33,845 bases of DNA, from positions 1 through 33,845 of IMG/VR virus record IMGVR_UViG_3300021185_000687. The stretch is one strand, 5' to 3'. The DNA comes from a virus. Of the stretch, positions 5,716-10,309 are shown piece after piece (positions within the stretch are counted from its first letter, which is position 1; the number at the start of each line of letters is the position of its first letter). A program made the position numbers and the translations under genes. The notes below the pieces were generated by a model, which did not search any database, was not told where the DNA came from, and was given only the letters and a program-made list of their open reading frames with translations.

Positions 5716-5912
5716 AAGCCTTTCGCCACAAATTCTAGTTCATCAACGCCTAGCTCATTAGACATCTTGGTCACCAGAGATAAACTAGCATCTTTCTGGT
5801 ATCTCCATCTGGAGACTTGCTGCTTATGAACAGCAAAGCGTTTCGCCAGTTCTACCGACGTTACGCCTTGCTCCTCTTGGGCAGCTCTAAGTGCTTTCCC
5901 AAAATCAATCAT
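5712..5912 (-). CDS. XRE/Cro-type transcriptional regulator
   Basis: This 66-residue protein starts at ATG 5912, preceded by gaggtactt, a better site than the upstream in-frame ATG at 5948, which would overlap the previous gene. It consists of a single helix-turn-helix of the Cro/CI type (SVELAKRFAVHKQQVSRWR at about residues 19-37). Cro-sized, with no dimerisation or cleavage domain, it probably acts as a small repressor of the early operon in which it lies. The inverted repeat at the leftward promoter (7384-7402) is a candidate target. Confidence 0.8.
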   Translation of the reverse strand: MIDFGKALRAAQEEQGVTSVELAKRFAVHKQQVSRWRYQKDASLSLVTKMSNELGVDELEFVAKGL

Positions 5913-5919
5913 AAGTACC

Positions 5920-6195
5920 TCAGAAGGGTAAATCCGAATCAAAGTCATCCACAGGCGCAGCAGCGACAGGAACTGTGTCTACTGGGCTGTCAGTGTTGAT
6001 CGAGCCAGAGCCTTTAATTAACGGCTTGTTAGAACCATCGGGCTTATTAGTAAACGCAGTGGTAGAGATATTCTCTGTAACCACTTGGCAGTTAGGGCAG
6101 GTAAACGAAGCCTTGCCTGTCATCTGTGGTGACCTTTCTGATTTAGGCTTGTCGTTTTTCCACAGGGCAAAATCAATTACTTGTGTGTATGTCAT
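5920..6195 (-). CDS. Short protein with SSB-like acidic C-terminal tail
   Basis: This 91-residue protein begins with a strand-rich segment (IDFALWKNDKPKSE, then MTGKASF), reminiscent of small phage OB-like proteins. It has one CPNC pair (33-36) and a low-complexity linker (about 60-80). It ends in DDFDSDLPF, almost the DDDIPF tip by which bacterial SSB recruits RecO, PriA, exonuclease I and other partners. It lies directly after the exonuclease with a 4-base overlap. I infer a single-strand DNA-binding or SSB-mimic role. The N-terminal part is too short for a full SSB. Confidence 0.6.
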   Translation of the reverse strand: MTYTQVIDFALWKNDKPKSERSPQMTGKASFTCPNCQVVTENISTTAFTNKPDGSNKPLIKGSGSINTDSPVDTVPVAAAPVDDFDSDLPF

Positions 6196-7354: not shown

Positions 7355-7382
7355 ATTAATCTCCTTTAGATAATGCACAGAC

Positions 7383-7411
7383 AGTCTACTGCTGCTGTAG
7401 ACATTGGTCAA
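7383..7411 (-). promoter_or_regulatory. Leftward early promoter for the ERF operon
   Basis: Read on the minus strand there is TTGACC (7406-7411), a 17-base spacer, then TAGACT (7383-7388): five of six and four of six matches to sigma-70 boxes. The predicted start near 7376 leaves a short leader holding the taaaggag ribosome site. The -10 lies inside a perfect inverted repeat, so it is likely repressible. Confidence 0.7.
7384..7402. promoter_or_regulatory. Operator-like inverted repeat over the leftward -10
   Basis: GTCTAC (7384-7389) and GTAGAC (7397-7402) are perfect inverted arms separated by 7 bases. The 19-base site covers the -10 and the start of the spacer, where a bound dimer would block RNA polymerase. 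The size suits a small XRE dimer, and the operon encodes one (5712-5912). The pairing of the two is inferred. Confidence 0.6.
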
Positions 7412-7448
7412 CTGTTTTTATTTACAACTGTGTGTTTCCACAAATACC

Positions 7449-7485
7449 ACGACAAATCAGCGCTTTTTTTTGTGAGTTTTGTCGT
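7449..7485. repeat. 8-base inverted repeat in control region
   Basis: ACGACAAA (7449-7456) and TTTGTCGT (7478-7485) are perfect inverted arms with 21 bases between them, including a run of eight T at 7463-7471. The distance and weak stem do not suit an intrinsic terminator; a pair of half-sites or a looped operator is more likely. Confidence 0.4.
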
Positions 7486-7488
7486 AGT

Positions 7489-7524
7489 CAATCGTAATTA
7501 CTACTGAAGCAATCGTAATTACTA
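7489..7524. repeat. Two direct repeats each holding a GTAATTAC palindrome
   Basis: The 15-base sequence caatcgtaattacta occurs at 7489-7503 and again, identically, at 7510-7524, a period of 21 bases or two helical turns. Each copy contains the perfect palindrome GTAATTAC (7494-7501 and 7515-7522). Tandem dimer sites on one face of the DNA are typical of cooperative operators. Confidence 0.6.
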
Positions 7525-7563
7525 GCTGAAACTTTTTTATTTCAACTGGAATTTTTGACAGGC

Positions 7564-7592
7564 AAAAAAAAGCCCCTTGTGGAGAGGGGCTT
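7564..7592 (-). terminator. Intrinsic terminator, minus strand
   Basis: AAGCCCCT (7570-7577) and AGGGGCTT (7585-7592) form an 8-base stem with a 7-base loop. On the minus strand it is followed directly by a run of T (complement of the A-run 7564-7571). On the plus strand no T-run follows. It therefore ends leftward transcripts that start to the right of 7592, before the ERF promoter. Confidence 0.75.
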
Positions 7593-7681
7593 GCAATTTC
7601 GTACAAAGGAGAATAACATCAAAGGGTCGGTGGGTTGACAGCCCTAAATTCCGACTAGAGAAGGAAAGTTAGAAACCCGAC
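7564..7681 (-). ncRNA. Candidate small RNA between promoter and terminator
   Basis: A minus-strand promoter (7688-7717) and the intrinsic terminator (7564-7592) bracket about 118 bases without an open reading frame. The predicted RNA carries two copies of GGGCTGTC and two GTCGG segments that could pair alternatively with one CCGAC. It also has pyrimidine-rich stretches (TTCTCCTTTG and ACTTTCCTTCT) complementary to Shine-Dalgarno sequences, including 8 contiguous bases of the ERF ribosome site. It could be a trans-acting regulator. Existence of the transcript is inferred. Confidence 0.45.
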
Positions 7682-7687
7682 AGCCCA

Positions 7688-7717
7688 AGTATACACAATA
7701 TCTTGTGCCTGTCACAA
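7688..7717 (-). promoter_or_regulatory. Candidate minus-strand promoter for the small RNA
   Basis: On the minus strand TTGTGA (7712-7717), an 18-base spacer and TATACT (7688-7693) form a sigma-70-like promoter. The predicted start is near 7681. A second weaker candidate, TTGCCA (7750-7755), 17 bases, TATAGG (7727-7732), lies just upstream on the same strand. Confidence 0.5.
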
Positions 7718-7886
7718 TCCCTTTCCCCTATATCTAGTCCCCGACCGTGTGGCAAAGCCTGACGTACTCTGGCTCATGCAAGCTGTCGCTTTTAATTCAG
7801 CCCCAGAAATGGGAGATTAAACCAGCACCAATGTCCTGCTCTGTCTCGGCCCTTGACAACAGGCAACCGCAAAATCGCAAGATACT

Positions 7887-8078
7887 GCCACGAACCGCTG
7901 GTGAGATACTTATACAATAGTGGCTGACTGTTCCACGCTGTGAAGCGTCAAGTCAGGGGGAAGCGACTCACTCAGGTGGGCGTTTTATTGAGTACCAAGT
8001 CTTAGGACTTTCGCTACGGCGGACGCAAGTGTCAGGGTGTATAAGGCTCTGGGTGATTTGCGGGGGAAAAAGGGCCGT
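7887..8078 (+). ncRNA. Candidate structured RNA in the control region
   Basis: A chain of perfect helices occupies this gene-free stretch. GCCAC/GTGGC pairs 7887-7891 with 7920-7924. CTGACT/AGTCAG (7924-7929, 7951-7956) is continued by ACGCT/AGCGT (7935-7939, 7944-7948) closed by a GTGA (GNRA) loop. AGCGA/TCGCT (7962-7966, 8011-8015) encloses CTCA/TGAG (7967-7970, 7989-7992) and AAGTC/GACTT (7997-8001, 8006-8010), a three-way junction. ACGGC/GCCGT (8016-8020, 8074-8078) follows directly. The GNRA loop favours the plus strand. It may be a leader of the 8124 operon or a separate RNA. No known family was recognised. Confidence 0.45.
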
Positions 8079-8123
8079 TGCGCCTAAAATTCGTGTTATC
8101 AGAAAAAACTTGAAGGAAATCAA

Positions 8124-8324
8124 ATGGATAACTTATCTGAGAAGCCCTGTCCCTGTGGTCAAACAATGGGTGAAGTCATAGGCTTTAAGGAACGAGTAAC
8201 AGATGGAGCGATGGTTAAATACAGAGTTTGCTGGTACTGCCCAGAGTGCCATGCAGTGGAAAAAGCGATTGGCAGGGAAACATTTGTAGAAACAATTCAT
8301 GATAAAGTAAACTCAGACTGTTGA
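8124..8324 (+). CDS. Small zinc-ribbon protein
   Basis: This 66-residue protein follows tgaaggaaatcaa, a good ribosome site. CPCGQTMG near residues 9-16 and CWYCPEC at about 36-42 give two cysteine pairs suited to one zinc ion, a rubredoxin-like or zinc-ribbon layout. It opens the rightward early gene group. Small zinc-ribbon proteins in phages often bind nucleic acid or inhibit host factors, but nothing here decides between these. Confidence 0.7.
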   Translation: MDNLSEKPCPCGQTMGEVIGFKERVTDGAMVKYRVCWYCPECHAVEKAIGRETFVETIHDKVNSDC

Positions 8325-9387: not shown

Positions 9388-9572
9388 CTACGAACATTAT
9401 GCGCTGTGAAGGCTGTCCAAAGTGGGTCAGGTCGCTCAAAGATACGATGTTTTGTGACGATTGCCTGAAGCTCAATGCAGTCTTAAATGAGTCGTGGCAA
9501 AAGCCTCAGATGCCAGAGCTGTCAGAACTTAAAAGGCTCATTGATTCATTTCCAACAAAGGTTACAAAATGA
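9384..9572 (+). CDS. Small zinc-finger-like protein
   Basis: This 62-residue protein has C8-x-x-C11 (RCEGCPKW) and C24-x-x-C27 (FCDDCLK), a four-cysteine zinc knuckle. A helical C-terminus (MPELSELKRLIDSFP) follows. It overlaps both neighbours by 4 bases. It may bind nucleic acid or act as an adaptor. It is the second zinc-ribbon-like protein in this early group but is not closely similar to the first. Confidence 0.68.
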   Translation: MTTNIMRCEGCPKWVRSLKDTMFCDDCLKLNAVLNESWQKPQMPELSELKRLIDSFPTKVTK

Positions 9573-10309
9573 TTAAATATCATGGAACACCAATTGGAGG
9601 CAAAACGACAGACGCTGCCGAACTTCTGAGAGGAAGGCACGGGCTGGTAAGTATTGCGCATCCAGAGCAATTGAATGTGGTTATGGAAAACTGCCAGTCT
9701 TTTGTCCTTGATAACGGCGCTTTTAGTGAATGGAAGAAATCTGGCAGCGAAATAGACTTTGATGCTTATGCGGACTGGGTAAAGTCTCTTTATCGGCATC
9801 CAAATTTTGATTGGTGTTTAATCCCAGACAAGATTGATGGAACAGAAGAAGAGAATGTTCAGCTCGTTAATAAATGGCTGAGAATGGGCTTAAGAGCAAA
9901 AGGCGTTCCTATCTGGCATCTTCACGAGAGTTTAGAGTGGCTTGAATGGCTTGTGGATAGATTTGAGTGGGTAGCAATCGGCAGTTCTGGTCAGTGGGCT
10001 ACTCCGAACACAAAGGGATGGTGGGCGAGAATGGGTGAAGCAATGAGTGTCTGCTGCGACTCAGAAGGACGGCCAAGAGCTAAACTGCACGGCTTGAGGA
10101 TGCTTGATCCGAGTATATTCACGAATCTGCCATTAGCATCTGCCGATAGCACTAATGCTGCCAGAAACAATAACCAGTTAAGTCGCTTTGGTATGTACGC
10201 GCCTCCATCAGCGGGACAAAGAGCCTCCAATATAGCGGCGAGAATTGAATCTTTTAACTCTGCTCCGGTTTGGCTTGGTAATAATCAGCAGTCTCTTGAT
10301 TTATTCTGA
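9569..10309 (+). CDS. TGT/DpdA-like deazaguanine transferase, predicted
   Basis: The 246-residue protein resembles, in motif order, the TIM-barrel tRNA-guanine transglycosylase superfamily and its phage DNA-modifying branch DpdA. FVLDNGAFSEW (D48) matches the DSGGF loop of the base pocket. IPDKIDG, PIWHLHES, VAIGSSGQ and LHGLRMLD follow, then LASADSTNAAR with D193 at the place expected for the nucleophile. The zinc cysteines of classical TGT are absent. It would exchange guanine for a 7-deazaguanine in DNA or tRNA. No preQ0 synthesis genes are in the window, so the base would have to come from the host. Function is inferred. Confidence 0.6.
   Translation: MIKYHGTPIGGKTTDAAELLRGRHGLVSIAHPEQLNVVMENCQSFVLDNGAFSEWKKSGSEIDFDAYADWVKSLYRHPNFDWCLIPDKIDGTEEENVQLVNKWLRMGLRAKGVPIWHLHESLEWLEWLVDRFEWVAIGSSGQWATPNTKGWWARMGEAMSVCCDSEGRPRAKLHGLRMLDPSIFTNLPLASADSTNAARNNNQLSRFGMYAPPSAGQRASNIAARIESFNSAPVWLGNNQQSLDLF

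Follow-up and report, generated by a model that had tools for sequence, protein, structure and literature searches.

The window analysed here is the whole 33,845-nt contig of an uncultured marine virus from IMG/VR. A gap without genes extends from 7366 to 8123, bounded on the left by leftward genes that end at 7365 and include the ERF and YqaJ recombination genes, and on the right by rightward genes that start at 8124 and encode a small zinc-ribbon protein, an SF2 helicase, a CHC2 primase-like protein and terminases. The zinc-ribbon-like protein has no match in Pfam or PHROGs, and the nearest PDB sequence to the helicase is that of RadD. Another protein of the window (9569-10309) matches PHROG 887, queuine tRNA-ribosyltransferase (2e-64), and is possibly a DpdA-like DNA-modification enzyme. 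In the gap lies a predicted RNA of about 470 nt that heads the rightward replication operon, and its 3' end may read into that operon. Together with the promoters and terminator, the region begins at 7562. Table 1 presents an overview of the features. Some related phages have a small extra ORF of approximately 70 codons separating the RNA from the zinc-ribbon gene (L008 4714-4920, L013 4793-5000, L032 4795-5002).

Table 1. Features of the RNA locus in window coordinates, except for the last row (promoters, terminator and transcripts are predicted).
Feature	Position	Strand	Remarks
Intrinsic terminator of antisense RNA	7562..7592	-	GC-rich hairpin 7592-7570, then T run
Antisense RNA	7565..7681	-	~117 nt; deduced from promoter and terminator
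Sense promoter	7591..7619	+	sigma-70-like; -35 TTGCAA 7591-7596, 17-nt spacer, -10 TAACAT 7614-7619
Long structured RNA, full extent	7626..8092	+	5' module 7626-7741, type A 3' module 7742-8092
Hairpin H1	7626..7655	+	GTCGG/CCGAC plus inner GGG/CCC; inner stem compensatory (GGG/CCC, GGTAT/ATACC, GGCAT/ATGCC)
Helix P2, closing 5' module	7653-7659 with 7733-7739	+	GACTAGA with TCTAGTC; parallel changes
Antisense promoter	7688..7715	-	-35 GTGACA 7715-7710, 16 nt, -10 TATACT 7693-7688; kept position
Hairpin CGT/ACG	7746..7764	+	7746-7748 with 7762-7764; 7746/7764 E<0.05; 99% paired, 13 double changes
Hairpin CCC-AGAAAT-GGG	7802..7813	+	7803/7812 E<0.05; 97% paired, 18 double changes
Core hairpin S1	7835..7863	+	CCUG-CUCU-GUC/GAC-AA-CAGG, C-rich loop; near-invariant in 28 diverse sequences
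Pseudoknot	7848..8076	+	loop GGCCC 7848-7852 with GGGCC 8072-8076; 84% of cells paired, double changes at 3/7 pairs
Long-range helix X	7867..8063	+	CCGCAAA 7867-7873 with UUUGCGG 8057-8063; double changes at 6/7 pairs
Local hairpins GCCAC/GTGGC, CTGACT/AGTCAG, ACGCT/AGCGT	7887..7956	+	94-100% paired where present
Hairpin CAC-UCAG-GUG	7969..7978	+	100% paired, 8 double changes
Two-pair tertiary contact	7988..8071	+	7988-7989 with 8070-8071, beside pseudoknot; 38/38 paired at both
Hairpin AAGUC-UUAG-GACUU	7997..8010	+	8000/8007 E<0.05; 99% paired, 31 double changes
Hairpin CGC-UACG-GCG	8012..8021	+	85% paired, 27 double changes
Small zinc-ribbon-like protein	8124..8324	+	first gene 3' of the RNA; homologues have other first genes
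RepL-like genes	L234 9071-9475; L235 9557-9955		in HS5 and Vibrio phage 1.115.A

In 14 of 16 representatives the best sigma-70-like match, the predicted sense promoter, lies 6-8 nt ahead of GTCGGTGG (shuffle p <=0.025); in the other two, of the L128/L132 class, it stands 13 nt ahead of GTCGGTGG, with a score of 6.5 and p ~0.3. The predicted antisense promoter occupies the same position in all 16, 5-7 nt before GTCGGG on the opposite strand, while its -10 element varies among TATACT, TAGAAT, TATAAT, TACAAT and GATAAT. Its shuffle p is 0-0.08 in 13 representatives and 0.24-0.33 in three, which belong to divergent classes. Most homologues keep a terminator hairpin with its T run, with altered stem sequences; in the L024 and L132 classes it is either missing or located further upstream. 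From these signals we infer both a sense and an antisense transcript. The convergent promoters are about 56 bp apart, so the predicted antisense RNA would overlap the first ~56 nt of the sense RNA and be complementary to its 5' end. The antisense RNA does not reach the 3' strand of P2, which is located past its start, and P2 is therefore part of the sense RNA.

Covariation, strand and extent of the RNA

The initial annotation proposed an undescribed structured RNA on the plus strand at 7887-8078, distinct from known riboswitches, tmRNA and RNase P. Rfam scans and ARAGORN, which detects no tmRNA or tRNA, agree with that proposal, and the element is almost certainly a genuine structured plus-strand RNA. 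The proposed interval covers less than half of it, as the element extends over about 7626-8092; the S1 hairpin, helix X, the pseudoknot, the promoters and the exchangeable 3' modules described below fall wholly or partly outside 7887-8078.

The RNA is judged to be real because of its conservation and covariation and not because of its folding energy. The excess of folding energy expected over shuffled sequence does not appear for 7887-8078, where z is -1.13 on the plus strand, with 26 of 200 shuffles folding equally well, and -0.13 on the minus strand. For the 3' modules of 15 homologues the mean z is -0.59 on the plus strand and +0.24 on the minus strand, and for the 5' module alone z is -3.0 on the plus strand. 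Folding energy is a poor test here since the defining pairs are pseudoknotted and therefore invisible to it.

Covariation is present in homologous intergenic regions between erf and the zinc-ribbon gene. Under a tree-based null, four pairs reach E<0.05 among 38 type A sequences (8000/8007, 7803/7812, 7746/7764 and 7988/8071), and these are Watson-Crick or wobble pairs in nearly all of the 38. The tertiary contact that includes 7988/8071 occurs as UA, AU and CG at one pair and as UA and AU at the other. In a set of 28 diverse sequences, 91.2% of the cells of the S1 hairpin, helix X and the pseudoknot are paired, and 10 of the 21 pairs have double changes, with 51 double-change cells against 17.5 when shuffled. 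One S1 pair swaps between U-A and A-U (17:11) across this set. Sliding the partners by one to three columns leaves 36-47% paired, a control that flatters the structure because the partners were chosen from the same sequences; the double changes are independent of that choice. Re-pairing strands between sequences leaves shared ancestry in, such that the following means are descriptive: P2 scores 7.57 against 6.49 (sd 0.13) for strands re-paired between 55 sequences, helix X 6.91 of 7 against 5.76 (sd 0.10), and the pseudoknot 5.77 against 3.03 (sd 0.43). At least six of the seven helix X pairs form in 32/32 sequences, and P2 recurs as GACTTG/CAAGTC, GACTCAAGA/TCTTGAGTC, GACTTTGGGG/CCCCAAAGTC and GATTGAA/TTCAATC.

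All of the helix strings named in the initial annotation are present in the DNA at the places given, and the homologues sort them. CTGACT/AGTCAG is real, with 94% pairing and 19 double changes in 38 aligned homologues. GCCAC/GTGGC (97% paired) and ACGCT/AGCGT (100% paired) are plausible; they are limited to the subset of roughly 13 relatives in which these segments occur, and show no double changes. AGCGA/TCGCT is 65% paired and gives way to the local hairpin CGC-TACG-GCG at 8012-8021, which fits better; the three-way junction built on it has no support in the homologues. ACGGC/GCCGT is rejected at 39% paired, its 3' strand belonging to the pseudoknot. The choice of the plus strand is borne out, although by the helices and their wobble pairs and not by the GNRA-type loop on which it had been based. 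U-G and G-U wobbles in helix X and the pseudoknot of four homologues (L015, L144, L177 and L183) pair only on the plus strand, which therefore is the strand of the RNA.

These same data bear on whether the conservation could reside in the DNA alone, as a protein-bound origin or promoter region in which RNA folds are incidental. Very high nucleotide conservation and the presence of two promoters would suit such a site; however, pair-preserving double changes nearly 200 nt or more apart and wobbles confined to one strand are unexpected for it, making this reading very improbable. Protein coding was also considered and is judged unlikely because indels among homologues are not divisible by three.

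Distribution and exchangeable 3' modules

When the gap is compared by BLAST with loci fetched through the zinc-ribbon and ERF proteins, 7559-8108 is 92.5% identical in L013 and 91.4% in L047, as against 43% and 45% identity of their ERF proteins to that of the window. Likewise, for L009-L012 the RNA region is 86.5% identical and ERF 47%. A pattern scan finds the 5' module in 72 viral contigs, and the S1 core gives 78 pattern matches, a few of them possibly due to chance, that reach highly divergent relatives. Eight queries drawn from the element in different contigs gave no match among isolated phages, nor did a plasmid search with the element. In GTDB genomes the 5' module has no match and the core pattern has three; one of these (L229) has the G-run and an X-like pairing, and the other two look like chance. 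The full element is absent from the isolates, plasmids and GTDB genomes in the collections searched. It apparently represents an undescribed RNA family common to dozens of uncultured phages.

Several shorter relatives extend the picture. The L229 match (5890-6180), from a Rhodospirillales MAG, is a compact core with S1, the G-run and the X-like pairing just after a tRNA-like sequence, and is perhaps an integrated element. Compact cores without the 5' module also occur at other sites, between the small and large terminase genes in L207 and among other genes in L194. On the reverse strand of L179 (4600-4850) and L200 (3780-4010), shorter relatives with closing helices of 10-11 bp (GCCCATCCGGT/ACCGGATGGGC and GCCCGGATAGG/CCTATCCGGGC) lie upstream of similar small ORFs, and may be of the true freshwater-1 type.

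The constant 5' module is followed by any one of three alternative 3' modules, designated A, B and C. The 59 distinct 5' modules comprise 42 of type A (40 by pattern, with L149 and L172 added by eye), 11 of type B, three of type C and three that are cut off; additional type B pattern matches (L210, L213-L218, L221, L227 and L228) were set aside as chance. The exchange is apparent in pairs of loci. The 5' module of L162 (type C) is the same as that of L170 (type A) up to CACTGACC, beyond which the two diverge, and L006, with type B and an HNH gene, has a close relative in L007 with type A. Types C and A share just short motifs (AACTGTGGCTAAAATT and GAGTAC), for which reason their relation is only a suggestion. 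It is unusual for whole 3' modules to be swapped while the 5' module, with its predicted antisense partner, stays constant, and this exchange renders the function directly testable.

In L006 and L017 (3880-5000 in each), a type B module followed by an HNH endonuclease gene and a small ORF takes the place of type A, an arrangement that may reflect intronless homing into the RNA locus; the HNH protein is recognized by Pfam. The same genes raise the idea of a catalytic or mobile RNA, intron-like or self-cleaving, that spread with homing endonucleases, as do homing-type endonuclease-like ORFs seen by eye near L206 and L200 and the varied contexts of the element. Yet there is no Rfam match to group I or II introns or ribozymes, no interrupted gene or empty site is seen, and in every locus read the genes that follow the element are whole, leaving this a distinctly unlikely reading. 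Splicing was judged unlikely by eye, since the flanking genes are whole.

Candidate functions

The best guess, tentative and drawn by analogy, is an antisense-controlled replication RNA of the ColE1 type. In the scheme that we infer, every step of which is conditional, the long RNA would fold into its pseudoknotted shape and persist at the template or recruit replication proteins, thereby helping to start phage DNA synthesis via the host replisome, the phage SF2 helicase and the primase-like protein. The short antisense RNA would refold or block the long RNA and so limit initiation, and exchange of the 3' module would resemble a change of replicon type.

Replication control is favoured because of the position of the RNA, the lack of a recognized initiator, a contrast with RepL-like genes, the sense/antisense layout, the module exchange and the precedent of mycobacteriophage RNA origins (PMC7157519). 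The RNA lies between the leftward erf/YqaJ recombination genes and the rightward operon of the SF2 helicase and CHC2 primase-like protein, and no recognized replication initiator is found among the window proteins scanned. In two isolates without the RNA, Pseudoalteromonas phage HS5 and Vibrio phage 1.115.A, the same SF2 helicase is immediately preceded by a RepL-like gene, and that gene is absent from all RNA-bearing genomes searched. L214, one of the chance type B matches, was counted in error among the RNA-bearing genomes in this comparison. The RepL-like call comes from the deposited annotation and weak PHROGs matches of the Vibrio protein, to which the HS5 protein is 69% identical; a search with Pfam RepL detects none, even in these two phages. 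Cumulative GC skew is lowest near 6-8 kb, where it is confounded by gene direction.

Other findings weaken the case for replication. The RepL contrast comes from two related isolates, mutual exclusion of RNA and RepL is not seen among the ERF relatives, and the RNA-less YA3, Baldr and many ERF contigs have neither feature. Compact cores at other sites, such as between terminase genes, would be odd for an origin. Motifs are not shared with RedRock and Gladiator, and the antisense promoter does not score above shuffles in the three divergent classes. The broader version, a widespread family of RNA-driven, antisense-controlled origins in uncultured phages in which the antisense target is a constant 5' module, the replicon type depends on interchangeable pseudoknotted 3' domains and the RNA replaces a protein initiator, is somewhat doubtful.

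Nearly as likely as replication control is a cis-acting leader of the early operon. The folded nascent RNA would either influence the transcribing polymerase by RNA-only processive antitermination, as HK022 put does, or affect how the first gene is translated, and the antisense RNA would serve to switch it off. The RNA follows directly on its promoter, has no 3' terminator and adjoins the ribosome-binding site of varied first genes (zinc ribbon, helicase, MazG, HNH and terminase large subunit). The putRNA acts without a protein (PMC9378689) and resembles the present RNA as a structured nascent transcript heading a phage early operon. However, put is short and lacks such a pseudoknot core, the element is far larger, the operon is not enriched in rightward intrinsic terminators for which antitermination would be required, and the exchange of the whole 3' module is left unexplained; antitermination is a hypothesis here.

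A further possibility is a large ornate RNA that is processed from the early transcript and acts in trans as a scaffold or multimer, as GOLLD and ROOL do in forming RNA-only homo-oligomers (PMC12286853). The size, the pseudoknots, the phage habitat and, mostly, the lack of a conserved partner gene are in keeping with this. GOLLD, ROOL, OLE and HEARO are likewise large, ornate, associated with phages or metagenomes and of function not known; in contrast to them, the element has no match to their Rfam families, and a 3' terminator or processing signal is not seen. A trans-acting role is unlikely.

Comparison with known RNA families

No Rfam family reaches its gathering threshold in the window or in seven homologous loci, GOLLD, ROOL, OLE and HEARO included, and scans at permissive thresholds, run on the type A, B and C modules and on compact forms, add only weak matches below curated cut-offs besides freshwater-1. 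The latter (RF02979, a 62-nt sRNA with a gathering score of 72 bits) is the only recurring sub-threshold match, at 13.7 bits in the window and 8.1-19.4 bits in homologous genomes, and it falls exactly on S1 in the window and in most related genomes having any match. Its consensus hairpin, CCUGCUCUG..CAACAGG, recurs with the same asymmetric internal loop at window 7835-7863 (alignment L189), whereas the 62-nt model lacks helix X, the pseudoknot, the 5' module and the promoters of the ~470-nt element. By threshold the element is not a member of freshwater-1, and it is probably related to it by the shared motif. Apart from a short hairpin, Rfam has no annotation for this large phage RNA, which occurs in dozens of viral contigs and is strongly supported by comparison.

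In the ColE1 plasmid, RNA II is the replication preprimer and RNA I its antisense RNA, and a defining feature of this type is an RNA-DNA hybrid processed by RNase H into the primer at ori. The present element is similar in having a long structured RNA with its own predicted promoter at the 5' end of a replication region. A counterpart to the antisense RNA of ~110 nt, with a convergent promoter and its own terminator, is a prediction here, from sequence signals that are found in most classes and are weak in three. It differs in that the overlap is only ~56 nt, the antisense RNA runs past the sense start, the 3' modules are exchangeable and the role as an origin is putative. The plasmid search found no sequence relation to ColE1 or plasmid origins, and a likeness between GAAACCCGACA and the ColE1 origin region was discarded, being short and on the wrong strand.

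Among phages, the closest parallel to the proposed replication control comes from the RNA origins of mycobacteriophage prophages (RedRock, Gladiator and Alma), which are about 600 nt of noncoding DNA from which RNA is made, and which were shown to be required for and sufficient to support autonomous replication (PMC7157519). Both are noncoding phage DNA making RNA, although the mycobacteriophage origins sit in parABS prophages and the present element in metagenomic phage contigs without a GTDB match; the RedRock and Gladiator origin regions contain no S1 or 5' module motifs. If the RNA does drive replication, the range of RNA-based phage origins would widen from prophages of mycobacteria to phages that are uncultured and mostly marine, and the unexplained freshwater-1 motif would gain a context.
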